From positions 1-64,000 of the IMG/VR virus record IMGVR_UViG_3300036651_001908: 64,000 nucleotides of DNA. The stretch is one strand, 5' to 3'. The notes under the pieces are model-generated. The model searched no databases. It was not told the origin of the DNA and was given only the letters and a program-made list of their open reading frames with translations. The position numbers were made by a program, and so were the translations under genes. The DNA is from a virus. Shown one piece after another: positions 4,480-56,320 of the stretch (position 1 is the first letter of the stretch; every line of letters begins with the position of its first letter).

Positions 4480-4607
4480 TTCTTGCTCCCGGTGGTGTGA
4501 GTGTGCGAGTAGAACGCGGCGTTCGTCGGGAATGCCTTGCCACAGAACTTGCAGGGCAGCGGAGTCGTCAGGGGCTTGGGGCCCTGGACCTTCTTCGATT
4601 GCTTCAT
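4476..4607 (-). CDS. single C2H2 zinc-finger microprotein, 43 aa
   Basis: A basic leader MKQSKKVQGPK is followed by CKFCGKAF, 9 residues, then HTH: essentially one minimal C2H2-like finger. Predicted leaderless from a near-consensus promoter (4614-4642). The 4-base ATGA overlap couples it to the 107-residue gene. A nucleic-acid-binding role is inferred from the fold only. Confidence 0.75.
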   Translation of the reverse strand: MKQSKKVQGPKPLTTPLPCKFCGKAFPTNAAFYSHTHTTGSKK

Positions 4608-37774: not shown

Positions 37775-39646
37775 ATGAAGATGCGTGACATGGCTGAGTT
37801 CTTCTCTCAGCCAGAGCCGCCTCCCCCCACAACGGTCGAATCGATCTTCGAAGAGGAGCCCGTCTCCCTCGACGTGTTCATTCGGGACAAGAAGTACCTG
37901 GGCTCCGAGTGGAATCTCTCGCCCATCCAGGCCGAGTCCGTGCGCACGATCGAGCGGATCTACCTGCCTTCGTTGTACCCCGAGATGGCGAAAGAGTTCG
38001 GTGGCTACTGGGCCGAGCCAATGCCGATGAAGAACATCATCACCCTCCAGTGGGGCAAGGGATCCGGCAAGGACCACGTCTGCCGTATCTCGTCCCTCCG
38101 GGTGGCGTACCTGCTGCTCTGCCTGAAGAGCCCGCTTCAGTACTTCGACATGCCGGAGGACGACTCCATCCACCTGCTGAACATCGCAGCGAACTCGGCT
38201 CAGGCGAACCGGGCGTTCTTCACCCCGCTGACCAAGTCGGTGAAGCGTGGGTGGTTCGCGGACAAGGCAGACCCGAAGCGCGACTCCATCCAATATGCCA
38301 AGAACATCGAGTCCGTCTCTGGGCACTCTGATGCAGAAGGGCAGGAAGGATTGAACATTCTGCTCGGTGTCGCGGATGAGATTGATGCGTTCAAGGCCAG
38401 TGACGAGATGGTGGGCCAGGGCAAGCGAGCCCGTGAGGCATCCACCTCCGCCGAATCCATCCTGAAGATGCTGAAGGGTTCGGCCTCGACCCGATTCCCT
38501 GAGTCCTACAAGCGCGTGGCCATCTCCTACCCGCGCTACGTCGGCTCCACGATCCAGCGGCTCACTGCCGAGGCGGAGGATGACATCAAGGAGGTCGGAC
38601 CGACCTCGATCTACTTCGCGTCCGGCCCCTATGCCACGTGGGACGTGAACCCCCGCATCAAGGGCAAGGAGTCCTTCGCTTCTGACTACCGGCGCAACCC
38701 GGTGGAGGCCGCGGCCATGTACGAGTGCAAGCCGCACCTCGCGACCGACCCGTACTTCCGCAACTTCGAAATCTTCAAGCAGGCGATCGATGCTGAGGAT
38801 CAGCCGCTGCATGTGGACTACGAACTGGAGAACATCAAGTCCAAGCGCACCGGCTCAGTCCAGCAGGTGTGGACGCCGAAGTTCGACTTCGCCTCCGACT
38901 TCGTTCCCGTCCAGGGTGCGCGCTACGCCCTCCACGGCGACCTCGCCATCAAGGGCGACCGGGCCGGTATCGCCATGGCGCACGTCGAGCGCTGGGAGTA
39001 CAAGAAGGACGTTTTACAAGACGAAGAGGGCGGTGACTACGAGGTCTTCACCTATGCGCCCCACGTCAAGGTGGACTTTGTCATCTCATTCGAGGCCGAC
39101 CTGAGCATCATGCCCGCCCGGGAGATTCAGATCCGCTGGGCTCGGTCACTCGCCTACCTGCTGATCAAGCGGGGCTTCGTCATTGACCGGTTCACCTTCG
39201 ACGGCTTCCAGTCCACCGACTCCATGCAGATTCTAGAAATGCATGGCATCACGAGCGAGAAGGTCTCGGCTGACCGCACGGACGATGTCTGGATGACGCT
39301 GCGGGATGTGGCCAGCGATGGCCGTCTGAAGATGCCGTACGACCCGCTGCTGCTCACCGAACTCGGTGCTCTGTCCCGCATCGGGGGCAAGGTGGACCAC
39401 CCTCCGCACGGCTCGAAGGATCTTGCGGACGCGCTCGCCTGTGCCGTGACTGGGGCCATCAATGCGGGCGGTGAAGAAGATGTCGATGGTACCGAGGTAG
39501 AAGTCGGTGCCACCTATTTCGATCTAGGTGAGGCTCTGACCCCTCTAGAGGGGTTGGAGGACATGGACGTGTTCCAGCCGGATGGGGCTTTCGCGCCACT
39601 TCTTGGGATGAAGGAGGTGCAGCACGATGAGTTCTTCGGTTGGTGA
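37775..39646 (+). CDS. terL: terminase large subunit, 623 aa
   Basis: LQWGKGSGKDHVCRISSLRV (~90-109) is Walker A; LLGVADEIDAFKAS (~196-209) is Walker B with catalytic Glu. The nuclease half shows RYALHGDLAIKGDRAGIAMA (~386-405), DRFTFDGFQSTDSM (~471-484) and HGSKDLADALACAV (~545-558), giving the acidic RuvC-like cluster. It packages DNA through the portal. ATG 37775 chosen; ATG 37784 is close. The 3' end overlaps the portal gene by 20 bases. Confidence 0.9.
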   Translation: MKMRDMAEFFSQPEPPPPTTVESIFEEEPVSLDVFIRDKKYLGSEWNLSPIQAESVRTIERIYLPSLYPEMAKEFGGYWAEPMPMKNIITLQWGKGSGKDHVCRISSLRVAYLLLCLKSPLQYFDMPEDDSIHLLNIAANSAQANRAFFTPLTKSVKRGWFADKADPKRDSIQYAKNIESVSGHSDAEGQEGLNILLGVADEIDAFKASDEMVGQGKRAREASTSAESILKMLKGSASTRFPESYKRVAISYPRYVGSTIQRLTAEAEDDIKEVGPTSIYFASGPYATWDVNPRIKGKESFASDYRRNPVEAAAMYECKPHLATDPYFRNFEIFKQAIDAEDQPLHVDYELENIKSKRTGSVQQVWTPKFDFASDFVPVQGARYALHGDLAIKGDRAGIAMAHVERWEYKKDVLQDEEGGDYEVFTYAPHVKVDFVISFEADLSIMPAREIQIRWARSLAYLLIKRGFVIDRFTFDGFQSTDSMQILEMHGITSEKVSADRTDDVWMTLRDVASDGRLKMPYDPLLLTELGALSRIGGKVDHPPHGSKDLADALACAVTGAINAGGEEDVDGTEVEVGATYFDLGEALTPLEGLEDMDVFQPDGAFAPLLGMKEVQHDEFFGW

Positions 39647-41369
39647 CAACTCTGATCAGACCGAGCAGAGAAGCCTCAAGGGCATCGATGAGCATCAGGA
39701 CAAGAAGCCTGATCCCAAGTCGTATGAAATCGAAATCGGCACTGACCTCAACATGCCGTTCAGCACGCCGTTCAACGGCACTGCTCTCGGCGTGCAGAAG
39801 ACTGCTGACGAAGAACTCCAGGAGATTCGGCGCAACTCCGGCTGGGAGGTGGATGAGGGGCCGACCGTTCGGCAACTGGTCACCATGCGCCGTATGGACG
39901 GCCAGGCCCGTGCGCTCTACCGCCTGCTCTCGCTGCCTGTCCGTGCCGCGCTGAAGTCCGCGACGTTCATTCCGGCCAAGGGCGGCACGGCTGAGGCCGA
40001 CTTCATCTCGAAGGTCTTCACCACGCCCCCCGAGGGCGGCGGAATGTCCGTCACCTTCCACCGGGTGATGAGCCAGATCCTCCAGGGGCTCTTCGACGGC
40101 TTCGCGCCCTTCGAGAAGATTTTCTGGGTCCCGGACTACGGTCCCCTCAAGGGCAAGATCACGCTGAAGAAGTTGGCCTACCGGCCCAGCGAGACGATCA
40201 CCTTCATCACCGACCGGCAGGGCCACTTCCGAGGCTTCCGCCAGCGCGCCGTGATCATGGGCAAGGCCCTCGACGCATACATCCCCGCCTCCAACGCGTT
40301 CTACTACGCGGCCCAGGAGGAGGAGCGGAAGTTCTACGGAATCTCGTTCTTCCAGAGCGCCTTCTACCACTACGACAAGAAGGTCAAACTCTATTACATC
40401 GCCCACGTGGCGGCCCAGCGCTCCGCTGTCGGCACCCGAGCAGGCACTTACCCGCTGAACGCGAACAACGCGCAGCGCGGTGAGTTCGCCAAGTCGCTGT
40501 CGAACCTGAGCCTCGCGCAGTTCATGCTCATGCCTGAGAACTTCAAGGTGGAGATGCTGAAGGAGTCGGGCACGTTCGACTTCCTGGGCTACATCAACCA
40601 CCACAACAGCCAGATGAGCAAGAGCGTCCTCGCGGCGTTCTTCGACGCGAACACCGGTGCCGGAGCGAATGAGGGCTCCTTGGTGTCCTTCGCCGCCCCC
40701 GGCGACGACATGTTCCTGATGATGCTGCGCGCCGTGATGGACGACATCGCTACGGCGATCAACCACTACATCATCCCGCAGTTGGTGGACTTCAACTTCG
40801 AGGGCGGCAAGTACCCGGTCTTCAGTTGGGGCGAACTCACCGACGAGCAGCGTGCCGCGGTGGCGAACTCCTTCGACAAGTTGTCCATCGCTGGCCAGAC
40901 GATGAACGTCACGCCCGAGTTCATGCGTGCTCTGGAGCAGAAGCAGGCCAAGGAGATGGGCCTGGAAATCGACTACGACGCAGTCGAGAAGCGCGAGCAG
41001 GAGCAGCAGCAACAACTGGCTGGCGGCTTCCCGGGGATGCCTGGTGGGCTTCCTGGCATGGGCATGCCAGGTGCCTCCCCGATCGCAGCCGGTCCGGGCG
41101 CTCCGGGCGCTCCCGTCCAGCCCTCGATGGTCCCACCGAACCGGCTCACCCCGGGCGCTCCGGGCACCATCTCGCCGGTGCCGGGTCAGACGGGCATGCA
41201 GCAGGCCGCTGGTCGGACGACGACGCAGTTGAGTCCCGCGCAGCGCGTGGAGGCGTTCCAGTCCTCGCTGGCCAAGTTGACCGACGAGCCCGATCGGTAT
41301 GAGAACCTGTTGCGCCTCGCGTCAGAGATGCTGGACGAGACTCCGGAAGAAGATCAAGAGCCGTTCTGA
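39627..41369 (+). CDS. portal protein, DUF935-like, 580 aa
   Basis: RMDGQARALYRLLSLPVRAA then FHRVMSQILQGLFDGFAPFE (~85-160) and ISFFQSAFYHYDKKVKLYYI (~240-260) are typical of DUF935/gp18-type portals. The C-terminal ~110 residues hold a Gly/Pro/Met-rich stretch (FPGMPGGLPGMGMPGASP). Twelve copies should form the DNA channel. Lies between terminase and MuF protein, the canonical order. Confidence 0.85.
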   Translation: MSSSVGDNSDQTEQRSLKGIDEHQDKKPDPKSYEIEIGTDLNMPFSTPFNGTALGVQKTADEELQEIRRNSGWEVDEGPTVRQLVTMRRMDGQARALYRLLSLPVRAALKSATFIPAKGGTAEADFISKVFTTPPEGGGMSVTFHRVMSQILQGLFDGFAPFEKIFWVPDYGPLKGKITLKKLAYRPSETITFITDRQGHFRGFRQRAVIMGKALDAYIPASNAFYYAAQEEERKFYGISFFQSAFYHYDKKVKLYYIAHVAAQRSAVGTRAGTYPLNANNAQRGEFAKSLSNLSLAQFMLMPENFKVEMLKESGTFDFLGYINHHNSQMSKSVLAAFFDANTGAGANEGSLVSFAAPGDDMFLMMLRAVMDDIATAINHYIIPQLVDFNFEGGKYPVFSWGELTDEQRAAVANSFDKLSIAGQTMNVTPEFMRALEQKQAKEMGLEIDYDAVEKREQEQQQQLAGGFPGMPGGLPGMGMPGASPIAAGPGAPGAPVQPSMVPPNRLTPGAPGTISPVPGQTGMQQAAGRTTTQLSPAQRVEAFQSSLAKLTDEPDRYENLLRLASEMLDETPEEDQEPF

Positions 41370-42163
41370 TGACCTCGTACCGCGACCAGATCAGTGCCAC
41401 CGTTGGTGCTCACAGCGCGGTCAACTCGCTGGAGTCACAGGCACGTTCCCGTGTGGCAGCACTGATTCAGCAGTATGAAGCCGGACAGATCACTGGCCAG
41501 CAGATCCGCTACCGTCTAGAGAATCTGGTGCGCCAGGCGTATCGGGCGTCCGGCGAGATAGGCAGCAATCTGGTCGCTGCCCAGTCCGGACTGGAGGACT
41601 GGCAGCCGCAGGAGCGAGTCTTCTCCTCCGCGTACCTGAACGCGCTCCTCATGGATGTGCGCCGGAACCTCCAGGACTACAAGGCCTCGGAGCGGGATGC
41701 TCTAGCGCAGCGGCGACTCCAGTTGCGGATCCAGGCCTCCATCGGCGTCGGCACCCAGCGGGGCTACACCGACGCGCAACTCAAGGGCTACAAGGAACTC
41801 AAGGACTTCGGCTTCCAACTCCGCAAGGTCTGGTGGGCGAACTTCGTCAACAACACCCCCTGCCCAATGTGTGCTGCGCTGCACGGCAAGGACGTGGAAC
41901 TCGAAGAGGACTTCGGCCAGGGGCTGGGGACGAAGGTCTACCACAACCTGGAGGGGCCGCCCCGGCATCCGAACTGCCAGTGCACCCTGGTGGTGCTGAT
42001 CAGCACGCTGGAGAACGCCTACGAGGGCATGAACTTCGATGCCCCACAGAAGGTGGTCACCGACATGTCCACTGACCAGGTTCGCAAGATGCCGCTCGCG
42101 TTCTTCTTGGCCGTCGTCAAGACCCTGAAGAAGATCATCTCGAAGTTCGGACACAAGTCATGA
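41369..42163 (+). CDS. MuF-type minor capsid protein (SPP1 gp7-like), 264 aa
   Basis: KVWWANFVNNTPCPMCAALH and GPPRHPNCQCTLVVLISTL (~153-215) form the C-x2-C...H-x2-C-x-C block of the Mu F/SPP1 gp7 family. The N-terminal half is helical. These proteins bind the portal and DNA and enter the cell with the genome in some phages. TGATG overlap with the portal gene. Confidence 0.85.
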   Translation: MTSYRDQISATVGAHSAVNSLESQARSRVAALIQQYEAGQITGQQIRYRLENLVRQAYRASGEIGSNLVAAQSGLEDWQPQERVFSSAYLNALLMDVRRNLQDYKASERDALAQRRLQLRIQASIGVGTQRGYTDAQLKGYKELKDFGFQLRKVWWANFVNNTPCPMCAALHGKDVELEEDFGQGLGTKVYHNLEGPPRHPNCQCTLVVLISTLENAYEGMNFDAPQKVVTDMSTDQVRKMPLAFFLAVVKTLKKIISKFGHKS

Positions 42164-42461: not shown

Positions 42462-45400
42462 ATGGCCTTGAGCGACCTCGATCCGTACGAGGAGATTCTT
42501 CTCCTGAGTCTCGGGATGCGGCACGTCCGTACCCTTCAGGGCGCTGAGTTCTTCCATCTCCCTCTCGGTGCGTTCATTACGCCGGAGGAGATAGAGGCGG
42601 CCACGGCAGCCAACGGGGGCGATCTTGCGCAGGATGCGGCCGAGGCAGCGCAGGATGCAGCCGAGGCCCAGTCCGACGAAATTGCGGACAAGGCGGAAGC
42701 CGCGCAGGATGCGCAGGCCAAGGCAGCGAACGCTGCTTCCAAGATCGCCAAGTTCAAGTTCAAGGGCGTTCCGCCTGGCGCCCTGGGCACGAAGAGTGAG
42801 GCGGAGAAGTCCGCCGCGGCATATGCCAAGAACCCGTCAGCCACGATCTTCAAGAACCTCCCGAGCCACCACCCGTACAACCTGCCCGCAGATCACCCCC
42901 GGCACCTTGCTCCCCCCGCTTCCGAGGCGGCTGCCCTCGCGCTGGACCACCAGCATCACCTGGTCAGCGGCAACCCCGACACGCAGTTCCAGCCCCACCC
43001 GTCAACGTTGACCGGTCCGAACGAGTTCTCCGTCGGGCCGATGAAGTACAACGTCCCGGCTGGTTCCCGGATGTTCCAGCCCAAGGGCATGCCGAACGTC
43101 CGCATCCTCATCACGCCGGACGAGACCGTGCACGCCTTCACCCACGTGGGCGAAGTCGATGTCCCGATGGATCTTCAGCAGGCCTTCGCTGACGTGCTCC
43201 CCCCGGGGGCGAAGAGCAACGATCTTTACCAGACGAAGAACTTCGATGTCGCCGCTCCGGTCACCAGCGACCTGAAGGCGCACATCCAGAACACCCACGA
43301 CACCAAGGCCGCCGCGCGCTATGCCGCAGCCCTGGTGCAGAGCGACCACGCCAACACGGCGGCGGCAGCCGCATCCCCTCCTGCCAAGGGTGCTCCGCCC
43401 GTGGAGCCGCCCGCTGCCATGACCCCGGAGGAGGCGGGGCAGCACGCGTCGATCACCGGTGCGCTCATGCACGCGCACCCCGGGGCAGAACTGGTCAACG
43501 GTGATGGTGAGACCGAGTTCATCAAGCAGCCCGATGGCACGTGGAAGCACGCGCTGTTCAACGCCACGGTGGATGAGTCCGTCGTCCAGAAGTTGGTCAC
43601 CTCGGGCGAACTCCACATCAAGGGTGCTGCTCCCGGCCTGACTCATGATTTCAAGGGCATGTCCAAGGAGCAGTGGCTCGCGTTCTTGAACAAGGCTCCC
43701 GTAGGGGCCAAGTTCCAGATCGACGGCAAGGACATGGTCAAGGGGGAGGACAAGACCTGGAACGGCATTCCTGCCGAGAAGATGGGCACCCTCCGGCTCA
43801 TCGCCAACAACTATGAGGACGGCACCGGCCCGGCTATCCCGAAGAAGGAGGCACCGGCCAGCCCGTACTCCGCTCCGCAGGAGGCGTGGAAGGAGTCGCC
43901 GGTTCCCACCGGGCCGGACCAGATCACGGCCGCCCAGATTCAGGTTGGGGACAAGGTCAATGGCGACCCGGTCACGAAGACCTTCAAGACCGAGACCCCC
44001 GGTCGCGTTCGCGTTGTCACGCGGAGCGAGGCCGGAATGCTCCAGGAGCATTCCTGGCTGAAGACGACCCAAATCGGGGTGGAGCGAGCCAACCACGGTC
44101 TGTCGTTCGATGAGAAGTACCCGAACGCGAACAACGGGAAGCCCAACACCGGGAAGTCGATGAACGACTTCACCAACACTCCGGGTGGAGGCACGGCAGG
44201 TCAGGGTCTCAACACGCCTAAGAAGGCGGACGCGGGTAGTGTAGAGAAGCCCGCAGCGGCTACCCCGCCGCCCAAGAACGAGAATCTGGCTAAGCCGGAG
44301 TATCAGCCATTCGTAGCGCCGAAGGAGAGCAATGTCGGATCAGAAGCCGGAGCAGGAGCAGGTGGAAACCAACCTGCAAGCGGGAACGCTCAGCCCGCAG
44401 GATCGGGAAACGTTCCTGCACATGATGGCGGGAACGGCAACGCCAACGCCGGATCAACTGGTGGATCTTCAGAAGCAGTGGCCGGACAGCAACATCCTGA
44501 TGGCAATGGGGCTGGGCCTGGGGTAATCCCCCCCGAAATCGTCAAGGGTGAACTGCCGCATTCTCCTGCGGTCCAGGCCCTCGCCGCGAAGGGGCTTGTC
44601 ACCCCGCAGATGGTCGAACTCCACGCCGACAAGGGCGCGCAGTTCTTCCAGGACGCCATCTCCCGGCTCAAGGAGAACAACCCCTACGCTGCTGCTGTCT
44701 ACGTCCACCCGGTGGACGAGTACAAGAACATGCGGCTCTTCGTCACGCAGGACGGCACCGCTGGCTTTGCCGTCGATGGGAACAACGCCGTCTCGCTGTT
44801 CATCAGCCCGAAGTCCCCGCACAAGGGTGGCTCGGTCGCGATGCTCACGATGCAGACCGAACTCGGTGCCCGGCGTCTCGACGCCTTTGACACTGTGCTG
44901 CCCGGGATCTACGCCAAGGTCGGCTACGTGCCGTCCGCCCGCGTGAAGTGGGATGACAACTACGCCCCGGACGGCTGGGACAAGAACACCTTCAAGCCGT
45001 GGAACAACGGCGAGCCTGACGTGGTGTTCATGGTTCATGATCCTGCCCACTCGGATGGCACGTACCACCCGGGCGAGGGCAAGGTGTTCGCCTCCTACGA
45101 CCAGGCGGAGGCGTTCACCAAGAAGGCCGCGCTCAACCCGAGCCTGGTCAACCCGGCCAACACCACGCCGGGAGAGGTGCACCACCAGCCCGGTGAAGTC
45201 CTGTCCCACCAGGATCTGAAGAGCCTGCCTCCGGGGCACACGGTGGAGCACACGCCCTCCGGAGTTCAGTACACCAGCCAGGGCCAGGGCCAGTTCCTCT
45301 CACACAAGAGCAACGGCGTCGGTGATGTCGGCCTGATGAAGACGGCTGCTGACGCGGGCAAGATGGCGTACCACTCCAAGACCTCGGGCGCAGCCCCGGC

Positions 45401-48400
45401 TCCGGAGAAGGCTCCTGAGCCCCCGGCCGCCACTGAGGTTCCCAAGGCTCCCGCCGCGCCCCCGGCCGCTCCCGCTCCGGAGAAGAAGTCCGGTCCGGCG
45501 ATGAAGAAGGCCGAGCAGTTGACCAAGGGCGACAAGATCGCCACGGGCACCGTCTTCGGCGTCGATCACATCAACGCGCCCAAGGGCAAGGTCCACGTCT
45601 ACTACCACAACCACAAGGGCGTCATGCAGAAGGGGGAGTGGAACAAGTCCACTCTCATCGGTTACGAGGCCCCGAAGGCTGCCACGCCTGCTCCTGAGAA
45701 GGCTCCTGAGCCCGCAGGATCTGGTGGTGGGGCCGCGCAGCCTCCGACGCCTCCCGAGGCGCCTGCCGCGCCCAGCGGGGGCAATGCGGAGGGGTCTGGC
45801 TCGTCCGACTCCAAGCAACTGTGGGAGAACGGTCCGCAGTTCAGCACGCAGGACATCCAGGCGGCGCACGATGCGCTGAAGAACGCCGGTGCGTTCCAGG
45901 TCTCCTACGGCTTCAAGAGCATCCCCAGCAACCCGCTGGCGAGCCACCAGGCCGAACTCAAGGCCGAGGCCAAGAAGCAGTTCCCGACGATGCAGCCGAA
46001 GGCCGCCGTCGTGAAGTTGCTGCACAACCAACTCTCCCCGGAGCAGAAGGCGGAGAGCAAGGCCGAAGAGGTCGCGAAGATCCACATCGGAGCCAAGGAG
46101 CCGAAGCCCACACAGCAGGGCTTCAACGGTGGTGACTACACCGCAGACGAAATCCGGCACGCCATTCAGGCGCTGGAAGCCGACAACGGCAAGTTGGTGA
46201 AGTCCATTCTCAACAAGGCGGGCAGCCCGCTTGGTGAGTTGAGCCCGATCACGTTGCCGGAGGTGGGGTTCAACAAGGACAAGACCATCACCAAGCAGAA
46301 GTTCATCGACCACCTGAAGAGCCTGCTGCCGAAGGAGACTGGCCCGAAGAAGGTCACGGTCCGTCCTGAGAAGGACATCACCACCGGCACGATCGGCACG
46401 CCGCTGGAGAAGGACGGGCGCTTCGTCGCCCCGCCCAAGGCCGCTCCGAAGAAGGTCACGGTCCGCCCCGAGAAGGACATCACTACGGGCACGGTGGGTA
46501 CTCCGCTGGAGAAGGATGGGCGCTTCAAGGCCAAGGAGAAGTTGCCCCATCAGCCGGGCGACCTCCTTACCGGTGAGCAGGTCAAGGCTCTCCCGGATGG
46601 GCACGTCATTGCGTGGCACACCCATGACGGTGCGACCCACCCCGATGTGCAGCACACCGGGATCAAGGCGGGCGACAAGGTCAACAACGACCATGGGACC
46701 CAGAACAACGTCAGCACACTTGCCATCGTGGCTAACTCGCACGATCCGAATTCTGCTTCTGTGATGAACAAGCATGGCGTTCACTACGTGGGCGGTCCCG
46801 GTGCAACGAAGTTGGATGTCTCGAAGTACAAGAACGAGTTCTCCAAGGCCGAAGAGCCGAAGTTGCCCACTGCATTGGAGAACTTCGACAAGCCTGAGGA
46901 CACCGGACACGGACTTCAGCCGGGCGACCACGTTGATCAGGCTGCCTTCGACAAGTTGGTTCCCGGTGACCAGATCAAGACCTACCCGGGGGGCACGGTT
47001 TACTACACGCTGATGCCCGGTGGTCAGTCCTTCGAGTCCAGCCTGTCCGGCAGTCTCTTCGACAAGGAGGAGATGAACCCGACGGCCTACACCGGCATGG
47101 AGTTCAAGGGGCATGATGCTTCTCATGACGCTGTAACCCCGTCGGCTACCCCTGCGGCCTCTGAGGCTGAGATGCAGACGCACGACCAGGCTGTGGCGCA
47201 GACCCAGGAGTTCACTCCAGCGACGCAGGACCAGATCAACAACGCCGGTGTGGGCTCGCAGATGATCCTTCACTCAGTGAATGGGACTGAGTATCCCTTC
47301 ACCATGGGTACTAACGGTCAGTGGCACAACCCTCAGATGGGTGAGTTCAGCCCCGACCAGATCGATGCCAGCAAGGGTCATTTCGAGATGACCAAGGAAC
47401 TCAAGAAGTTGCCGACCGGCGACCCGAAGACCGTCGAGGAGATGCACGCCTTCCCGGAGAAGACGCAGTTCACCTACCACGCTGCATCCGGGACGATCTA
47501 TGACGCGGCTAAGTCCACCTCGGGGACCGTGCAGATTGCAGGCCTGGGCAACTACACGCCCGAGGGTGTGAAGGACCAGATCACAGCCGGGAAGTTCCAT
47601 GTGGAGCACATCCCCACTCCCGACGCTCATCCGCTCTCCCCTGCGGAGGTCGCTGCTCTCGGTGTGGGTTCCCGTGTCTTCTACTCGGGCGGCTTCGGTC
47701 GCGTCCTGGAGCGCAAGCCCGACGGCATGTGGCAGAGCCCCGGTGGGCAGGATGTGGGAGACGTTACCGGCATCGGTACGGCGCCCATCTACCTGGTCTC
47801 CGAGGCCGACAAGGGCGACCCGGCGAACATCGGCTACAGCCCTGAGATTCTGGATGCCAAGCCGAACAGCGTCGTGACCTACGCCGACGGTGCCGTGGCC
47901 AAGAAGATGGCCTACGCCTGGAACCTGTACAACTCGGATGGCGAGAGTGGAGGCACGCTCAACCCGGCCGTCGTCGCGCAGGACGTAGCCGATGGGCACG
48001 CGACACTGACCCACACCCCCACCGAGGCACAGCCCTTCGCACCCGGGAAGTACATCTCCAACGGCAAGGCCGCCATGCACGTCCTCCCGGACGGCACCGG
48101 TGTCTACGTCGCGAGCACGGGCACGACTTCCAAGTTGTCCAAGGCGAACGTGCTGAAGAACCACGACGCCGGGATGAGCAACTACCTGGGTGCCAACCAC
48201 CCGGTGCCCGAGATTGCGCCCAAGGAGTCGAAGGCTCCTGGTGCGGTCACCAAGGCTGCCGTTGCCGTTCCGACGAGCAAGGACATCCCGGATGGCAACT
48301 ACTACCTGAAGTCCAAGGCCGGTGACAGCATTCTCGTTACTGCCAATGGTCAGCAGGTGGCGAAGAACGGCGAGAACATCGGTGACCTGAAGAAGTTGAA

Positions 48401-51400
48401 GTTGGCCTTCAACAAGGGCCAGATCCTCGACCTCAACGGCACCTCGATTACACCGGTTGGCTACTCCGGTGGTGTCTCCCTGCTCGATACTCCGACGACC
48501 ATTCCGGCTTTGCTCGACCTCCAGAAGTACCTGGATCAGCATCCGGACCTGTTCAAGACGCCCTACTGGTATGGCGTCACGGACAACTTGTCCGCTGCGG
48601 GTTTCCCTCTGTCGTTGAGCGCATTCGTCAAGGCGTACAACGAAACGGCCGGTCCGGGGATGGCAGCCACCACCGGGCACTACTTCATGCAGGACGCACC
48701 CGCGGATGTGAAGGAGGCGATGGCCAACTTCTTCTCGCAGTCGGTCGCAAATCTTCTTGCGAAGGTGGACACGGCGATCCCCGACGCCAACACGTCGGCC
48801 CTGTTCGACTGGACGACGAACGGCCAGGCGAAGCCCCCGCTCCAGTTGGTCTCGATCCCGAAGATCAGCAGCAGCACCGACCCGGCCACGCTCAACGCGT
48901 ATGTGAAGCAGATCACTGAAGCACTCGGCGCGCAGAAGATTTTCAACCTGACCGGCATGACCAAGTACGCCAAGATGGATTGGATCAACGCGGTCAAGAA
49001 GGGCAACTTCGCCCACGCCTACGATTTGGAGGTCGCGTCACACTCGAACAAGGGGAAGGTGCACCCGTCGGGGTACCTGCACCCGGGCTACGAGGGCAAT
49101 GCGGCGACGAACAAGATCCAGTGGGGTCCCGCAGTCGAGGGCGAGGTCCCGGCTGGTGTTCCGGTCGAGGGTAACTGGACCTCCATCGGTGTGGCTGCTT
49201 CCACCGAGGAGTTGCAGAACTACCTCATCGCAGCGCACATGCAGCACCCGGAGCACCTGACCCTCGCGCAGCAGCGTTCCTGGGTCACGTACCACCGCAC
49301 CGGAGACAAGCAGGCCACGGATCAGTTGTCCGCCATGGCGGCTGTGAAGGCGCAGAACGGCGACCCTCAGATCAGTCCGACTCCGGTGTGGACGGACAAC
49401 GTCCAGCCTGCGAAGTCGTACGCCGTGTGGTTCGACAAGGGTCCGTTCCCCACCGAGAACGACATCTACAACGGGCTCACCGACGCCCCGGCCGAGTACC
49501 TGAAGGACAACGCCGGGAACGCCGAACTCCAGAAGTCGTGGGACGCCTGGTCCTCGCCGTACAAGAACAACTACACCAGCCTTCAGGATATGGCACACGG
49601 CGGCTCCTGGGGCACGCAGAAGAAGTTCCTGACGGATCACTTCACCCGGCTCCGGGAGGAGGCTGCGGCGGAGGAAGCCAAGCCGAAGTTCTCGTTGGTG
49701 AAGGAGATTGCCCAGGGCCAGCATCCCGCCTACCTGGTGGAAGACCACGGCAATCAGTACATCTTCAAGCCGGTGGATCCGGGCAAGGACTACCGTGCAG
49801 AAATCGAGGCGGCTGCCCTGCAACTGGGCGCGCTCTGGGGCTTCACGGAGCCGACGGCATCCGTCCAGTCTCTACCGACTGCCTCCGGCGAGCCCATGTT
49901 CGGTGGCCAGGTTGGCCTCCTCCAGTCCCTGATCCCGAACGTCGGGAACATGAACTTCGCTGACGGCCCGGTGGACATCGCGAGCCTGCACCCGAAGCAG
50001 TTGGGCCAGATCGCTGCCGAGCACGTCCTGGACTGGGCGATCGACAACAACGACGGCCACGGCGACAACCTCCTGATGACCCCGGACGGCAACATCGTCG
50101 GCATTGACAAGGGTCGTGCCTTCGCTGCCTTCGGCACCTGGGACGGGCTGAACGGCCCCGGCATGAACTACCAGGCCGAGACCATCGCTTCCAAACTGTT
50201 CATGCTGGCCAAGGCCGGTGTGCTCACCCAGGAGCAGATGGATGGCGCGTACAAGGCGGCGCTGAAGGCTGCGAACAAGATTTTCAAGTCGCCGGATGCA
50301 TCGGCTGTCTCGATCATCGCGAAGGGCCTGGCGAACCGGCCGCACTACCAGCAGGGTCCCGGCTCGAAGGAAGCCGTCATCCAGGCCTTCCTCGATCGCA
50401 AGCACGGGATCGTGGATGACATCAACAAGTTGTGGACGGGGATCTACGCCAAGTCCGGACTGACCAAGCCGGAGCCTCCCGTCAAGGCCTTGAACGAGGA
50501 CTTGCAGTCTGGCTTCCATGAGCCCGACCTCAGCGCGGCCATTCAGGACAAGGCGGTGTGGGGCGTGACCACGTTCCACGCTTCTCCGGACATCAAGAAG
50601 GGTTCCGTCCTGATTTGGCAGGAGAAGAACTCCAACGGCGATCCGGTCGCCAAGGGGCTGTTCGCCGTCAACAAGTACGCCGAGGGCAAGTTGCTGTCCT
50701 GGCTTGATGGCCATCTCAGCACTGATACCAGTGGCTCGTACGCGAGTGCGCAGTCGCTGGCCAACTTCCCGAACATGGAGCCCTTCCGCAAGGCCCTCTC
50801 CACCGCGGGTCGCGAGGTCAGTGATCACCTGGAGTCCGGGAACCCCAGCCCGGAGGTCATGCAGAAGTTCCAGGAGACCAAGGATCAACTTCTTGCGGAT
50901 GCCCAGTTCGGAGACACCCTTCCCGTCACTGCTGGGCAGGGCACCGATCCGATCAAGTTCCCCTCGGGCAATGCAGTGGATCCGGGCGCGCTGGGTCAGT
51001 ACCGTGCTGCGCTCACCCACTACCTGGACGCCGCTTACGAGGTGGAGCAGGCGCAGAAGGAGCAGCGTAAGACCGAGAAGTCACTGTTCGGGATCTACCA
51101 CCCGATCGCGGCGAAGACCACTCCGGCCACCTACCTGAACCCGGAGAAGGGTCTGGCCTACACCGAACTGACTACCGGAGACTTCATCACGAACATGGGG
51201 GTTGTGGTTCCGGCATCGCAGTTGCCTGACGGGGCGAAGGAGGGCTTGAACGGCTGGACTGCCATCAATGGGGCTCAGCAGTCCAGCGGGCTCACGGTGG
51301 TGAAGGAGCACGCGGGCGACCTGGCCGGGGCACTGAAGGAGGGCGGGCTCAAGGAGCAGTCCGACACCTTCAGCACCGCGGGCCACAATGGTTCGGAGTA

Positions 51401-52547
51401 CGTCGTTCATCTGACTACCGGTGAGTACATCCGGTTCCGTAACAGCGATCACACCAGCACCGATCAGTCGCAGTGGGACCAGATCCGCTTCCGGCTCTCC
51501 GGTTCCGATCACGAGGCCAGCCTGTCTCGGGTGGAGGCCGTGCTCAATCAGATGGGCCTGGACATGTCCGGGGCCGAGCCTGAGCACACGGAGGACATCT
51601 ACTGGAAGGAGATGTTCAATGCTCTGATCGGCAGCAGTCAGCAGATTCCGGCTGCTCAGAAGCAGGTTCTCGAAGACATGGCGCAACTCCGGAATGACCT
51701 CATGACGGAGCATGGTGTCTCGTACGACGGGATTGCGGACAAGCACCTGATCGAAGCCATTGCGGCGTCGAAGACGGTTGTTCCGGATCAGCATCAGTTC
51801 TGGCACGACAAGGCGGTGCAGGCATTCGGCCAGAAGAAGGTCGATGAGTGGCTGGCTGCGGAGAAGCACCTGCCGCAGTTCCAGCACTTTGATCTGGCCA
51901 ACCCGGAGAAGACGACCGGTCACGCTTTCTGGAACCGGCTCGACTTCACCCTGGAGCAGATCCTGGCGAAGCAGACGCTGCTTGGTCAGGGCACCATGGG
52001 TAAGGACAAGTCGTTGGCCAACTTCATCAAGTCCGGTAACTCGATCAGCACCGAGGAGCGCTTGCGCATGCTTGGTGTATTCGGTCACGGTATCTCGAAG
52101 GAGTCCGACCAGCCCAAGGGTGGTGCCAACTACGTCTTCGCCCGTACCGCCTATGACAAGGCGAAGTACGAAGGGGCTGCGGGCTTCGGTCCGCACGTCA
52201 TCTACTGGAACCCGGCGCTGTTCTTGCAGACCGGAACCAAGGGGTTCAACTACGACGCGTACGGCGAGCAGGACTCTCTATATAGAGCACAGGCCGACAT
52301 CCTGAAGGCACTGCGCCACGGGAACATGGACAACGAGACCGACATCCAGAACGCCATCTCCGTCTTCGACTACATGGAAATCATGATCTTCGATCTGGCA
52401 GAGAACCGCAATGCCGCGATTCAGAAGATGAAGGCGCTCGGACATGCCATACTGCGTGGTGTACCCATCGAGGAGCGGCTGATCATGCGTCAGGACGTAA
52501 ACAAGGCCATGGCGACCGTCATGGCGGCGTGGGGGAAGAACACATGA
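42462..52547 (+). CDS. giant polyvalent virion protein, 3361 aa
   Basis: Start at ATG 42462 with GACAGGAG upstream. Regions: Ala/Glu coiled helix (~45-95); GNAT-like domain (~727-866: VHPVDEYKNMRLFVTQDG, KGGSVAMLTMQTELGARRLD, GIYAKVGYVPSARVKW, PDVVFMVHDP); many beta domains of ~70 residues (G-D-x-x-x-x-A-L-P-x-G motifs) to ~2000; helical modules; a HipA/PI3K-like kinase domain (~2408-2580: QYIFKPV, then DNNDGHGDNLL and GIDKGRAF); and a C-terminal domain (~3180-3346: NYVFART, NETDIQNAISVFDYMEIMI) like those ending MuF-linked proteins. Probably packaged and injected as a set of host-acting enzymes. Contains an overprinted ORF. Confidence 0.85.
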   Translation: MALSDLDPYEEILLLSLGMRHVRTLQGAEFFHLPLGAFITPEEIEAATAANGGDLAQDAAEAAQDAAEAQSDEIADKAEAAQDAQAKAANAASKIAKFKFKGVPPGALGTKSEAEKSAAAYAKNPSATIFKNLPSHHPYNLPADHPRHLAPPASEAAALALDHQHHLVSGNPDTQFQPHPSTLTGPNEFSVGPMKYNVPAGSRMFQPKGMPNVRILITPDETVHAFTHVGEVDVPMDLQQAFADVLPPGAKSNDLYQTKNFDVAAPVTSDLKAHIQNTHDTKAAARYAAALVQSDHANTAAAAASPPAKGAPPVEPPAAMTPEEAGQHASITGALMHAHPGAELVNGDGETEFIKQPDGTWKHALFNATVDESVVQKLVTSGELHIKGAAPGLTHDFKGMSKEQWLAFLNKAPVGAKFQIDGKDMVKGEDKTWNGIPAEKMGTLRLIANNYEDGTGPAIPKKEAPASPYSAPQEAWKESPVPTGPDQITAAQIQVGDKVNGDPVTKTFKTETPGRVRVVTRSEAGMLQEHSWLKTTQIGVERANHGLSFDEKYPNANNGKPNTGKSMNDFTNTPGGGTAGQGLNTPKKADAGSVEKPAAATPPPKNENLAKPEYQPFVAPKESNVGSEAGAGAGGNQPASGNAQPAGSGNVPAHDGGNGNANAGSTGGSSEAVAGQQHPDGNGAGPGVIPPEIVKGELPHSPAVQALAAKGLVTPQMVELHADKGAQFFQDAISRLKENNPYAAAVYVHPVDEYKNMRLFVTQDGTAGFAVDGNNAVSLFISPKSPHKGGSVAMLTMQTELGARRLDAFDTVLPGIYAKVGYVPSARVKWDDNYAPDGWDKNTFKPWNNGEPDVVFMVHDPAHSDGTYHPGEGKVFASYDQAEAFTKKAALNPSLVNPANTTPGEVHHQPGEVLSHQDLKSLPPGHTVEHTPSGVQYTSQGQGQFLSHKSNGVGDVGLMKTAADAGKMAYHSKTSGAAPAPEKAPEPPAATEVPKAPAAPPAAPAPEKKSGPAMKKAEQLTKGDKIATGTVFGVDHINAPKGKVHVYYHNHKGVMQKGEWNKSTLIGYEAPKAATPAPEKAPEPAGSGGGAAQPPTPPEAPAAPSGGNAEGSGSSDSKQLWENGPQFSTQDIQAAHDALKNAGAFQVSYGFKSIPSNPLASHQAELKAEAKKQFPTMQPKAAVVKLLHNQLSPEQKAESKAEEVAKIHIGAKEPKPTQQGFNGGDYTADEIRHAIQALEADNGKLVKSILNKAGSPLGELSPITLPEVGFNKDKTITKQKFIDHLKSLLPKETGPKKVTVRPEKDITTGTIGTPLEKDGRFVAPPKAAPKKVTVRPEKDITTGTVGTPLEKDGRFKAKEKLPHQPGDLLTGEQVKALPDGHVIAWHTHDGATHPDVQHTGIKAGDKVNNDHGTQNNVSTLAIVANSHDPNSASVMNKHGVHYVGGPGATKLDVSKYKNEFSKAEEPKLPTALENFDKPEDTGHGLQPGDHVDQAAFDKLVPGDQIKTYPGGTVYYTLMPGGQSFESSLSGSLFDKEEMNPTAYTGMEFKGHDASHDAVTPSATPAASEAEMQTHDQAVAQTQEFTPATQDQINNAGVGSQMILHSVNGTEYPFTMGTNGQWHNPQMGEFSPDQIDASKGHFEMTKELKKLPTGDPKTVEEMHAFPEKTQFTYHAASGTIYDAAKSTSGTVQIAGLGNYTPEGVKDQITAGKFHVEHIPTPDAHPLSPAEVAALGVGSRVFYSGGFGRVLERKPDGMWQSPGGQDVGDVTGIGTAPIYLVSEADKGDPANIGYSPEILDAKPNSVVTYADGAVAKKMAYAWNLYNSDGESGGTLNPAVVAQDVADGHATLTHTPTEAQPFAPGKYISNGKAAMHVLPDGTGVYVASTGTTSKLSKANVLKNHDAGMSNYLGANHPVPEIAPKESKAPGAVTKAAVAVPTSKDIPDGNYYLKSKAGDSILVTANGQQVAKNGENIGDLKKLKLAFNKGQILDLNGTSITPVGYSGGVSLLDTPTTIPALLDLQKYLDQHPDLFKTPYWYGVTDNLSAAGFPLSLSAFVKAYNETAGPGMAATTGHYFMQDAPADVKEAMANFFSQSVANLLAKVDTAIPDANTSALFDWTTNGQAKPPLQLVSIPKISSSTDPATLNAYVKQITEALGAQKIFNLTGMTKYAKMDWINAVKKGNFAHAYDLEVASHSNKGKVHPSGYLHPGYEGNAATNKIQWGPAVEGEVPAGVPVEGNWTSIGVAASTEELQNYLIAAHMQHPEHLTLAQQRSWVTYHRTGDKQATDQLSAMAAVKAQNGDPQISPTPVWTDNVQPAKSYAVWFDKGPFPTENDIYNGLTDAPAEYLKDNAGNAELQKSWDAWSSPYKNNYTSLQDMAHGGSWGTQKKFLTDHFTRLREEAAAEEAKPKFSLVKEIAQGQHPAYLVEDHGNQYIFKPVDPGKDYRAEIEAAALQLGALWGFTEPTASVQSLPTASGEPMFGGQVGLLQSLIPNVGNMNFADGPVDIASLHPKQLGQIAAEHVLDWAIDNNDGHGDNLLMTPDGNIVGIDKGRAFAAFGTWDGLNGPGMNYQAETIASKLFMLAKAGVLTQEQMDGAYKAALKAANKIFKSPDASAVSIIAKGLANRPHYQQGPGSKEAVIQAFLDRKHGIVDDINKLWTGIYAKSGLTKPEPPVKALNEDLQSGFHEPDLSAAIQDKAVWGVTTFHASPDIKKGSVLIWQEKNSNGDPVAKGLFAVNKYAEGKLLSWLDGHLSTDTSGSYASAQSLANFPNMEPFRKALSTAGREVSDHLESGNPSPEVMQKFQETKDQLLADAQFGDTLPVTAGQGTDPIKFPSGNAVDPGALGQYRAALTHYLDAAYEVEQAQKEQRKTEKSLFGIYHPIAAKTTPATYLNPEKGLAYTELTTGDFITNMGVVVPASQLPDGAKEGLNGWTAINGAQQSSGLTVVKEHAGDLAGALKEGGLKEQSDTFSTAGHNGSEYVVHLTTGEYIRFRNSDHTSTDQSQWDQIRFRLSGSDHEASLSRVEAVLNQMGLDMSGAEPEHTEDIYWKEMFNALIGSSQQIPAAQKQVLEDMAQLRNDLMTEHGVSYDGIADKHLIEAIAASKTVVPDQHQFWHDKAVQAFGQKKVDEWLAAEKHLPQFQHFDLANPEKTTGHAFWNRLDFTLEQILAKQTLLGQGTMGKDKSLANFIKSGNSISTEERLRMLGVFGHGISKESDQPKGGANYVFARTAYDKAKYEGAAGFGPHVIYWNPALFLQTGTKGFNYDAYGEQDSLYRAQADILKALRHGNMDNETDIQNAISVFDYMEIMIFDLAENRNAAIQKMKALGHAILRGVPIEERLIMRQDVNKAMATVMAAWGKNT
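44332..44526 (+). CDS. overprinted gene inside the giant ORF, 64 aa
   Basis: GAAGGAGAGCA precedes the ATG, a strong ribosome site, in the +1 frame of the giant gene. The product (MSDQKPEQEQVETNLQAGTL ... PDQLVDLQKQWPDSNILMAM) is protein-like and helical, whereas the giant frame here is a Gly/Asn/Ala linker whose third positions are unusually A/T-rich. Codon bias therefore follows the small ORF exactly between its start and stop. A +1 frameshift from the giant frame is an alternative way to make it. Function unknown. Confidence 0.6.
   Translation: MSDQKPEQEQVETNLQAGTLSPQDRETFLHMMAGTATPTPDQLVDLQKQWPDSNILMAMGLGLG
46347..46526. repeat. near-identical 26-residue duplication in the giant gene
   Basis: KKVTVRPEKDITTGT(I/V)GTP and LEKDGRF occur at 46347-46424 and 46449-46526, separated by an Ala/Pro linker. 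A recent internal duplication. Confidence 0.8.
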
Positions 52548-53144: not shown

Positions 53145-54683
53145 ATGACTGATGTAGCGGAAGTTGATGTTGACAACTCGCGCCCCCGCCTGAGTGGGGG
53201 TGGTGAGGGCCTTCTGCGCCCGGACTTCGGGTTCGCCGCAGCCGCCGCATCTCTACTGGGATGCGACCTCTCCCACTGGAACGGTGCCGTTGACATCGCG
53301 AAACTGGGCGCCCAGTTCGTCATCCTCAAGTTGGGGGGCTCGGATTCGGGCCGCTACACCGACCGGATGTACTCCACTTGGGCTCCCGAGGTTCGTGCCG
53401 CGAAGAAGCACCTCGGGCACTATTGGTTCAACGGAGCCGGTGACCCCGTTGCGGACGCCCGGTACTTCGTCGCGAACCTCTCGCACTACCAGGACGAGGA
53501 TCTTCTTGTTCTAGACATTGAGTCGGAGATTCCGGGTACGCCATGGACTCCGTCGCATGCTCTGGCATGGTTCAAGGAGGTCCGGGCGCTGAAGCCGAAG
53601 GCTCGGCTCGTGGCCTACATGTCGTCCTCCGTGACGACTGCTTTCGATTGGTCCGAGGTCGTCAAGTTCGGTGTCGAACTCTGGGTCGCGAACTACGGAG
53701 CCAACACCGGGAGCAAGCCGTCGGGCACCCCGGTCGTCGGGCACTGGAAGAACTGGATCATCTGGCAGTACACCAGCGTCGGTCGCATCGCGGGTGTCCC
53801 CGGTGCGGTGGACCTCAACTTCGCACACCCCAGCCTCTTCGCTCCGCTTCCTGCTCCGACGCCGGTTCCCAAGCCGGTTCCCAAGCCTGTCCCCGCTGTG
53901 CCTACCAAGGCCGAGGGCACAGCCATTCAGGAGTGGGCCAAGCACGGTGGCTACACGGGTCCGATCGATGGTGACCCGCAGAAGTACACCTGGACGGCCT
54001 GCCAGGTCCTGCTCAAGAAGGACTGGGGCTACACCGGCATCGAGGACGGCGTTCCGGGCACCCTCACTTACGAGGCGTTCGAGCGTTTGGCCAAGGCTAA
54101 GGGCGGCTACACCGGCTCGGTGACCAATGGTGTGCCCGACGCTGCCCTCTGGGCTGCGGTCGCTAAGGCTGTCACCCCGGCCCCTGCGCATGTTCCTGCC
54201 CCGGTTCCTGCGCCCGCACCTGCTCCGGCCCCCAAGCCGATCCCAGCCCCTACTCCTACCCCGGCGCCTGTTCCCGCTCCGGTTCCCCCCAAGGATGACG
54301 CCATGCAGACCATTTACTCCCGTACCTTCGCTCCGAATCAGCCTGTCAAGCCCGCTGAATGGACCACCGTCGAACTGGACGGGAAGGGTGTCTTCTCCTT
54401 CATCATCGCCAATGAGGATGGGAACTACGACATCAACGCGTCGTTCCAGTTCGCAGGCATCCCGGTGGGAGACAGCGCGCAGGCACGTCTAGCGATCGTG
54501 GACGCCAACGGCAAGGTGCTGCACCAGACGCCGGTGGTGGAGTTCGCGGGCACGCCCGGCAGCACCTTCGCTGCCCTCGGGCGCTTCGTCGCACTGAAGA
54601 AGGGCGAACGTCTTCGCGTGCAGGTCGCGGCCTTCACGCCGGGCGTGGTCCTGGCCCGCGGCGACGTGCAGTGGCACTCCTAG
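53145..54683 (+). CDS. GH25 muramidase endolysin, 512 aa
   Basis: LLGCDLSHWNGAVDIAKLGA (~37-56) with D-x-S-x-W, HYWFNGAGDPVADARYFV (~89-106) and DEDLLVLDIESEIP (~117-130, the catalytic D-x-E) identify a GH25 lysozyme. LWVANYGAN and IIWQYTS follow. Residues ~260-345 hold two peptidoglycan-binding-like repeats (GGYTGPIDGDPQKYTW; GGYTGSVTNGVPDAAL). A Pro/Ala linker (~348-385) leads to a beta-sandwich domain (~388-512). No signal peptide, so a holin is needed; none is obvious. Confidence 0.9.
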   Translation: MTDVAEVDVDNSRPRLSGGGEGLLRPDFGFAAAAASLLGCDLSHWNGAVDIAKLGAQFVILKLGGSDSGRYTDRMYSTWAPEVRAAKKHLGHYWFNGAGDPVADARYFVANLSHYQDEDLLVLDIESEIPGTPWTPSHALAWFKEVRALKPKARLVAYMSSSVTTAFDWSEVVKFGVELWVANYGANTGSKPSGTPVVGHWKNWIIWQYTSVGRIAGVPGAVDLNFAHPSLFAPLPAPTPVPKPVPKPVPAVPTKAEGTAIQEWAKHGGYTGPIDGDPQKYTWTACQVLLKKDWGYTGIEDGVPGTLTYEAFERLAKAKGGYTGSVTNGVPDAALWAAVAKAVTPAPAHVPAPVPAPAPAPAPKPIPAPTPTPAPVPAPVPPKDDAMQTIYSRTFAPNQPVKPAEWTTVELDGKGVFSFIIANEDGNYDINASFQFAGIPVGDSAQARLAIVDANGKVLHQTPVVEFAGTPGSTFAALGRFVALKKGERLRVQVAAFTPGVVLARGDVQWHS

Positions 54684-54847: not shown

Positions 54848-55218
54848 GTGCTAGATACTACACCCTCTAGAACAAGAACTCTAGCCTCGATCGTCTCTTG
54901 GCCAGCGAGCATGGCGCGGGTCACCCGATGGTGGCCGTCCTCCAGGTAGTTCTCTCCGCCCCAGACGATGACATGCGGATGAACGTCGCCCCCCACCGGG
55001 GTGGCCACTGGGCCAATGAGGGGCTGGAAGTAGATCCCATCCTGTGTGGCGGTGAGAGTATCGATCCGCACCGACTCCACTGGGACCTCTAGCCATGTCG
55101 CTGAGGTCTTCCCCGACGTGCCCCAGGGGCAGCCGTTCTCTCTGCTGATCACGCGGCGAAACACGTTTCTACTATCGGGATAGAACTGGATTCCGAGTCT
55201 GCCGATAGTACGTGTCAT
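54844..55218 (-). CDS. ParB-nuclease-like domain protein, 124 aa
   Basis: Starts MTRTIGRLGIQFYPDSRNVF. GGENYLEDGHHRVTRAMLAG (~90-109) is the D-G-x-H-R box of ParB/Srx-fold proteins, preceded by the expected strand (HPHVIVWGG). Small stand-alone versions are common in actinophages. Its ATG shares two bases with the rightward protease ATG at 55217. ATGATG overlap with the zinc-finger gene. Confidence 0.7.
   Translation of the reverse strand: MTRTIGRLGIQFYPDSRNVFRRVISRENGCPWGTSGKTSATWLEVPVESVRIDTLTATQDGIYFQPLIGPVATPVGGDVHPHVIVWGGENYLEDGHHRVTRAMLAGQETIEARVLVLEGVVSST
54855..54860 (-). promoter_or_regulatory. -10 box TAGTAT (leaderless)
   Basis: Minus strand, seven bases before ATG 54847. Confidence 0.5.
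55204..55209 (+). promoter_or_regulatory. GATAGT late-promoter element of the head operon
   Basis: GCCGATAGTACGTGTC precedes ATG 55217 by 7 bases. It lies within codons 4-6 of the divergent ParB-like gene. Confidence 0.6.
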
Positions 55219-56320
55219 GGCTACCGGTCGTGCAATCGTCCCCCCAGTGCGGGGTGAGGGATTCGTAGAACTCGCGCGCTCGCGCAAGGGCCGCGTCTTC
55301 GAAAAGCAGATCCTCAATTACGGGGACCTGCTCTACCCGGGTGTCAAGGGTGGCAAGGTCCACATCGATGACGAGTGGGCCGACAAACTCATCACGAACT
55401 TCTCCAACGGAGTCTGCGACATCGTCCAGGTTCCGAAGGCTGGCCCGAATAACGAGCACACCGAAGACCCCGATCGCAACATCGGTGAGGTCATTGGGCT
55501 TGTGAAGCGCAACGGAAAGATTTACGCGCACCTCGATGCTCGTGATGCTGAGGCGGCTGAGAAGTTGGGCAAGACCCTTCTCGGGGCGTCAGCGATGCTG
55601 CACCTCGACTACACCGACACCAAGACGGGATCGAAGGTCGGGCCGACTCTTCTCCACGTCGCGGTCACAAACCGCCCGTATATCACGGGTCTTGAGGACT
55701 TCGAGGAAGTCCTCGCTGCTTCTGCCGATGGTAGTGGCGAAGAGGTCGTCATGCTGACGGCTACGGACAATCAGGAAGGAAGCGTCATGACGCTTGAGGA
55801 ACTTCTTGCTGAGTTGAAGTCTGAGCACGGCATCGACGTTGCCGAACTCCAGACCAAGGCTGAGCAGAGCGAGATGGCCGCAGCCCTCTCCAACAAGATC
55901 GAGACCGAACTCGGTACTGCTGGCGTGCTCACGCTGAGCAATGGCGAGAAGGCAACCGCAGACGAACTCATCAACGCCATCGGAGAGGCCGGTCAGAAGA
56001 TCGTCTCCCTCTCCTCGCGGGTGGACGAGTTGGTCGAGAAGGGTGCCAAGGACGCGGCGGCCTCTCGGGTCGAGGGTCTGGTCCGTAGCGGCCACATCCT
56101 CCCGAAGAACAAGGACGCCCAGATCGAACTTCTGCTCTCGAACAGCGACCTGTTCGAGAAGTTGCTTCCCGAGAAGCCTCTCGTGAAGTTGTCCAACAAC
56201 GAGGAGGACGGCGAAGCCGGATTCCACGTCGAGGACGACCAGCAGAAGCAGACCGTCGAGGCCGAAGTTGCTCGTCTGACCCAGGTGGCAGACCAGCAGC
56301 GCGGGTTCGTTCGTTCCTGA
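55217..56320 (+). CDS. prohead protease-scaffold fusion (Mu gpI-like), 367 aa
   Basis: Residues ~15-175 match Mu I-type prohead proteases: HIDDEWADKLITNF, NNEHTEDPDRNIGEVIGLVK (the H of the catalytic region), GKTLLGASAMLHLDYTDTKT (with the Ser) and HVAVTNRPYITGLEDFEEV. Residues ~190-367 are acidic and coiled-coil-like, a scaffold. Cleavage would release the scaffold before packaging. Leaderless start from the GATAGT element. Confidence 0.8.
   Translation: MATGRAIVPPVRGEGFVELARSRKGRVFEKQILNYGDLLYPGVKGGKVHIDDEWADKLITNFSNGVCDIVQVPKAGPNNEHTEDPDRNIGEVIGLVKRNGKIYAHLDARDAEAAEKLGKTLLGASAMLHLDYTDTKTGSKVGPTLLHVAVTNRPYITGLEDFEEVLAASADGSGEEVVMLTATDNQEGSVMTLEELLAELKSEHGIDVAELQTKAEQSEMAAALSNKIETELGTAGVLTLSNGEKATADELINAIGEAGQKIVSLSSRVDELVEKGAKDAAASRVEGLVRSGHILPKNKDAQIELLLSNSDLFEKLLPEKPLVKLSNNEEDGEAGFHVEDDQQKQTVEAEVARLTQVADQQRGFVRS
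55787..56320 (+). CDS. internal in-frame start: free scaffolding protein, 177 aa
   Basis: AGGAAGGAAGCGTC precedes an in-frame ATG at codon 191 (MTLEELLAELKSEHGIDVAE), exactly at the protease/scaffold boundary. It would make scaffold without protease, as lambda Nu3 is made within C. Confidence 0.6.
   Translation: MTLEELLAELKSEHGIDVAELQTKAEQSEMAAALSNKIETELGTAGVLTLSNGEKATADELINAIGEAGQKIVSLSSRVDELVEKGAKDAAASRVEGLVRSGHILPKNKDAQIELLLSNSDLFEKLLPEKPLVKLSNNEEDGEAGFHVEDDQQKQTVEAEVARLTQVADQQRGFVRS

Follow-up and report, generated by a model that had tools for sequence, protein, structure and literature searches.

A probable small +1-frame gene overprinted on a giant polyvalent-type phage gene, next to a predicted GNAT-fold domain

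The polyvalent proteins encoded by phages and conjugative elements are believed to act as effectors that are injected, and GNATs are a listed effector class among them, with solo versions as well (Iyer et al. 2017, PMC5512222). In the MuF polymorphic toxins of temperate phages, small open reading frames (ORFs) next to the effector region have been proposed as immunity genes (Jamet et al. 2017, PMC5576092). Overlapping genes are described in viruses, including phiX174 E and K, and a modular-fusion model has been put forward for the P/S overlap of hepatitis B virus (HBV) (review PMC8227390). Here we describe a 64-codon ORF in virus record IMGVR_UViG_3300036651_001908, embedded in the +1 frame of a giant gene and lying beside a predicted GNAT-fold domain of the giant protein; the window analysed comprises bases 1–64000 of this 123,755-base record. 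The features on which the argument turns are the following.

42462–52547, plus strand: giant host gene, 3361 aa, a polyvalent-type multidomain protein of the head module
44314–44316, plus strand: TAG shutting the +1 frame six codons upstream of the small-gene ATG, which limits frameshift entry to 44317–44331
44322–44327, plus strand: Shine-Dalgarno (SD)-like AAGGAG, 4 nt before the small-gene ATG (spacer AGCA), which also encodes Lys-Glu of the giant
44332–44526, plus strand: embedded small gene, 64 codons (MSDQKPEQ...MGLGLG), +1 frame of the giant, ATG start, TAA stop at 44524–44526
44331–44567, plus strand: giant-frame segment with collapsed GC content at third codon positions (GC3), a Gly/Asn/Ala/Ser linker; the best low-GC3 segment
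44553–45116, plus strand: predicted GNAT-fold domain of the giant

The locus resembles the polyvalent systems in that a giant multidomain protein with a GNAT effector lies among head genes; it differs in that a text search of PMC5512222 gave no small genes overprinted beside an effector domain. With the MuF toxins (PMC5576092) it shares a head-associated protein, a C-terminal effector and small ORFs adjoining the effector region; gene 4 of Microbacterium phage Caron, a carrier of the same arrangement, encodes a VG15 capsid domain and the GNAT domain. The small ORF of MuF toxins, however, lies downstream of the toxin gene, whereas here it lies within the host gene, in the +1 frame and usually upstream of the effector domain, whose toxicity is only putative in our case. 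Like the overlaps of phiX174 and HBV (PMC8227390), this one is an internal +1 overlap on the same strand, and the HBV model follows the same logic, with a short gene between two modules that are later joined through its alternative frame. Known viral overlaps are mostly found in compact genomes; here unrelated phages repeatedly show the arrangement next to a single domain family, and with a phage record of 124 kb genome compression is a poor explanation. Each of the three kinds of system, overlapping genes, polyvalent proteins and toxin–immunity pairs, is already known. The literature searched (open-licence papers) yielded no description of overprinted small genes flanking one effector domain in unrelated phages; the first-pass annotation of this DNA likewise knew of no described equivalent.

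In our assessment the interval 44332–44526 very likely codes for a protein of its own and is a genuine +1-frame overprint on a polyvalent-type gene, bordering the predicted GNAT-fold domain. The same DNA carries two complete reading frames, that of the giant and that of the small gene. The ribosome site, ATG, 64 codons and TAA that had been read here in the +1 frame were all confirmed, the ribosome site being the AAGGAG at 44322–44327; as far as sequence can tell, AAGGAG-N4-ATG is an initiation signal internal to the giant frame, and SD-like sites are present at many relatives too. A complete embedded ORF is thus real, but its length and openness, which had been taken as evidence, weigh little alone. 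The +1 ORFs of at least 64 codons are common in the giant (about 6 per synonymous shuffle), and the +1 frame over the interval stays open in 90% of synonymous redraws (P 0.90), so both properties were discarded as evidence. Chance does not account for the combination of codon reversal, start signal and a conserved family.

Over codons 623–687 of the giant, GC3 is 0.385, the lowest among all 65-codon windows (mean 0.823; next separate minimum 0.692). With correction for amino acids, 26 of the 66 codons over the small ORF end in G or C versus 50.3 expected (z −7.3), and a sliding scan of amino-acid-corrected giant GC3 has its minimum at z −7.33, with the next at −2.99. The small frame, in turn, has GC of 0.67/0.39/0.78 by codon position, normal for this genome, so that its GC-rich third positions are indeed genome-typical as first described. 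The codon shift had also been placed over exactly the interval of the small ORF; this holds at the 5′-end, the ATG codon (44331) being where the best low-GC3 segment sets in, and only approximately at the 3′-end, since the segment finishes 41 nt beyond the stop.

The small ORF ends 27 nt before the GNAT-fold domain. The AlphaFold2 (AF2) prediction of this domain, built from 30 relatives, has a mean predicted local distance difference test score (pLDDT) of 94.7; its best PDB matches are the GNATs YjaB, PA1377 and GCN5 at a fold-level template modelling (TM) score of about 0.45 and 12% identity, and it matches phrog_2563 (E 4.9e-12). We regard 44553–45116 as a predicted GNAT fold and as a candidate member of an effector class listed for polyvalent proteins (PMC5512222). 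The small protein had no match in Pfam, PHROGs or NCBIfam, and direct tblastn in phages gave only matches of E about 6 or worse; an AF2 model of it alone is all helical, with a pLDDT of 70 that is too weak for interpretation.

With the GNAT domain as bait we gathered 81 loci, to which the cultured Microbacterium phages Caron, UtzChips and Barnstormer and the cultured phage DC33 were added. In Caron a +1 ORF, starting at 4591, occupies the corresponding position next to the domain, and in about 20 other phage genes with this domain small +1 ORFs of several unrelated families abut it. These protein-like ORFs lie on the upstream or the downstream side, in the +1 frame of the host; alternative-frame signals above threshold were found 64 times out of 64 in +1 and never in +2. 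Among 39 non-redundant hosts, 10 signals were adjacent to the GNAT domain and 2 were distant, with adjacent DNA making up 15% of the total (P 3.6e-7); an effector domain with an adjoining small gene, as in toxin–immunity pairs, is therefore enriched. The 25 representative embedded ORFs are all in +1 and all within the host ORF. Synonymous redraws of representative small genes mostly leave the host frame open with P below 0.06 (0.21 for the window), and both frames are kept in most cases. Some hosts and starts in this survey were picked by eye; the family and constraint tests are independent of that.

Several other small genes were seen at these loci. A different small basic protein (MPFKSKAQ.. 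type) occupies the embedded slot in L071 (3639–3773), L074 (3804–3935) and L067 (3864–4004), with A-rich sequence upstream instead of an SD site; the protein of L071 matches phrog_1375 (E 6e-4). In L085 (4566–4763) and L087 (3414–3584), both from Gastranaerophilales, the GNAT gene is followed by a standalone small gene that has a strong SD site, and in L087 a near-identical second copy stands in tandem from 3612. A strong alternative-frame coding signal (log-likelihood ratio 26) in the polyvalent gene of L070 (6390–6530), far from the GNAT domain, is possibly another embedded gene. Other embedded-ORF candidates from a scan of the rest of the 124 kb record sit within ORFs that may be spurious themselves.

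Similarity between the window and Caron was seen in the small frame and not in the host frame. The window protein and the Caron small ORF match with a pairwise E of 0.002, and in a shuffle test the small frames gave P 0.005 versus P 0.75 for the host frames. When the window protein by itself was compared by Smith-Waterman with the 4,650 six-frame segments of 38 GNAT loci, L012 ranked first (score 60) and L018 second (51), with the next at 42; shuffles matched neither score (0/3000). A profile of the window, Caron and UtzChips proteins, run against 13,876 segments, found L012 at E 4.7e-9 and L018 at E 1.1e-6, the next being 0.51. In the reverse direction a profile of L012 and L018 found Caron at E 1.4e-6 and the window at E 0.054 (next 1.2); with Caron and UtzChips added, the window was the first non-member at E 0.015 (next 0.39). 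The L012 small protein, used as a tblastn query on 50,697 phage records, hit the inside of gene 4 in Caron, UtzChips and Barnstormer and nothing else. Modest but consistent evidence of this kind suggests that the window protein belongs to a family with the pattern TxxDRxxF...ATPEQ...WxDxxIxMALxSG, shared with Caron, UtzChips, L012 and L018. Two of its members lie antisense within the host ORF.

L012 4717–4565, minus strand: antisense relative of the window's small protein, immediately behind the GNAT domain
L018 4831–4541, minus strand: antisense relative of the window's small protein, immediately behind the GNAT domain

The position-specific GC of these two ORFs is like that of DNA coding on the antisense strand, and host GC3 drops over them from 0.94 to 0.63–0.74; a clear ribosome site was looked for at both copies and not found. 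Recurrence of the family at the same domain on either strand would be hard to explain unless the small frame is protein-coding.

Several candidate relatives were rejected. L004, a 39% tblastn match to the small protein, is a chance hit, lying within an unrelated gene and having only the seed peptide in common; the matches of L101 and L102 were likewise dismissed as chance. Membership of the window protein in the PxLT-motif family, which fills the upstream slot of L008, L010, L011, L022, L023, L056 and L084, was dropped (leave-one-out profile E 2.7, rank 6). For the PxLT family itself, a match to DUF433 was weak (E 0.0019), below cut-off and limited to 2/12 members.

Selection was measured in relatives and not in the window's own ORF, because no diverged close relative carries the region; L002, L003, L005 and L009 are essentially the same phage as the window. 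Across 24 distinct DC33-like sequences the host-frame synonymous difference falls to 0.077 in the first embedded ORF, which lies before the GNAT region (start at 4714 in L008), and to 0.103 in the second, which lies behind it; outside the two ORFs the values are 0.276 (upstream), 0.237 (GNAT region) and 0.309 (downstream). In a sliding synonymous scan of the DC33-like 3.5 kb, the troughs coincide with the two embedded ORFs: both frames are under selection in these sequences. The second embedded ORF, also in +1 and also strongly constrained at synonymous sites, lies directly after the GNAT domain in L008 (5563–5751) and in the DC33-like L025–L055 (MENPQSLPNQEPE...). L008 (PQ492659.1) is Limnohabitans phage DC33, a 39 kb record with a 3125-aa polyvalent protein carrying LPD22 and ART-PolyVal; given this size and protein, its filing under Inoviridae looks doubtful.

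In Caron, UtzChips and Barnstormer the small ORF and its start region are kept and the flanks diverge, consistent with purifying selection on two frames. The first-pass suggestion that selection acts on the small frame is thus supported by the codon-position reversal, by homologous small ORFs in unrelated phages and by synonymous constraint in related arrangements. No giant homologue was found that keeps the linker and lacks the start or stop of the small gene, an observation that had been named as one that would speak against overprinting; Caron, UtzChips and Barnstormer keep both the start region and the stop. A full-length homologue of the giant, L006 2776–12480 (at least 3235 aa, 95 kb contig), appears to be without the GNAT region; it seems to be without the small-gene region as well, so it is no counterexample.

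The giant stands between a MuF-like gene and the protease and major head genes, as expected of a large multidomain polyvalent protein. Its neighbours in the window are as listed.

39627–41369, plus strand: portal protein (phrog_113, E 2.3e-38)
41369–42163, plus strand: head morphogenesis/MuF-like gene directly before the giant (phrog_4728, E 8.2e-9)
53145–54683, plus strand: endolysin-like gene after the giant (phrog_291, E 1.1e-38)
55217–56320, plus strand: head maturation protease (phrog_976, E 1.5e-7)
56965–58008, plus strand: major head protein (phrog_29, E 2.3e-25)

No Pfam LPD domain was found at cut-off in the window giant. The 3361-aa protein is without any cysteine.

Several observations weigh against the interpretation of the window ORF as an overprinted gene and a partner of the GNAT domain. 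The giant frame over the small gene is open in 21% of synonymous redraws, so that dual constraint is only putative for the window itself, and the spacer between AAGGAG and ATG is slightly short at 4 nt. The window protein is the weakest family member in the reverse searches (E 0.054 and 0.015), and no diverged close relatives of the giant carrying the small-ORF region were found. About a third to a half of the GNAT loci are without a clear embedded gene, and the same slot is held by several unrelated small families, which suits a specific GNAT partner less.

The small frame is probably older than the linker of the giant, because its codons are genome-typical and those of the giant frame are aberrant (the codon-usage criterion of PMC8227390). 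The ancestral small frame would once have been a separate gene between two modules, and the giant would have formed when the upstream module was read through the alternative frame of the small gene into the GNAT module; such a fusion would have left the small gene intact, its alternative frame becoming the linker. The simplest history we can infer has a small gene beside a GNAT gene, as in L085 and L087, later enclosed by module fusion. Ribosomes would start at AAGGAG-N4-ATG on the giant's own mRNA; if this start is used, production of the small helical protein would coincide in time and place with that of the GNAT protein. We tentatively propose that the small protein acts as the GNAT domain's partner. 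Most likely it would confer immunity or serve as a holding factor, so that the effector does no harm to the producing cell before packaging and injection of the giant. An immunity, chaperone or timing factor for the giant had already been suggested in the first-pass annotation and may be correct; the link to the neighbouring GNAT-fold domain is new here. The partner role is favoured by analogy with the presumed injection of polyvalent proteins (PMC5512222) and with the adjoining ORFs of proposed immunity function in MuF toxins (PMC5576092). It is conceivable, with less than even confidence on our part, that cassettes of a GNAT effector and its partner have been fused into giant virion genes via the alternative frame of the partner (mostly +1, sometimes antisense), leaving a class of hidden older partner genes, with one mRNA for the injected effector and for the protein controlling it.

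The main alternative to the partner role is a real gene with no functional tie to the GNAT domain, whose flanks would tolerate passenger small genes through gene fusion. It is a serious candidate, though short of probable, because several unrelated families use the slot (PxLT, MPFKSK near phrog_1375 and several downstream families); it does not account well for the strong enrichment of GNAT adjacency over the rest of the same giants, nor for small genes after standalone GNAT genes in Gastranaerophilales, with the tandem copy in L087. Classical overprinting, with the small gene born de novo atop an older giant linker, is how most viral overlaps are thought to arise (PMC8227390); we consider it unlikely here, since the codon criterion of the same review points to the small frame as the older one, and since the small family is found elsewhere in other arrangements. 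Quite improbable, in our judgement, is an untranslated by-product, a low-complexity linker with odd codons left by repeat expansion or relaxed codon selection: the host frame here is a Gly/Asn/Ala/Ser linker, and open +1 frames are common in the giant and expected at this place, but no other linker of the giant shows a comparable fall of GC3, the conserved translation is that of the small ORF and not of the linker, and the small family occurs on either strand. A programmed +1 frameshift, by which the N-terminal part of the giant would be released as a short product terminating at 44526, had been offered at first and would fit a +1 frame that soon ends; it is hardly credible given the TAG at 44314 that leaves 15 nt for the shift, closure of the frame within a few codons of the ATG in many relatives as well, the independent start signal, the antisense family members and the other small genes standing alone after a GNAT gene.

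Annotation pipelines usually keep one frame per locus, and small genes like the one we describe are therefore absent from databases; the small ORF of Caron is unannotated beneath its ‘minor capsid protein’. Should the pattern prove general, an uncounted set of small proteins would be contained in the effector genes of phages, with a simple detection signature: host synonymous change or GC3 dips where the +1 frame gives the opposite signal. Overprinting would offer a route to fuse domains while keeping the gene between them, and partner or immunity pairs for virion-delivered GNAT effectors would become directly testable.
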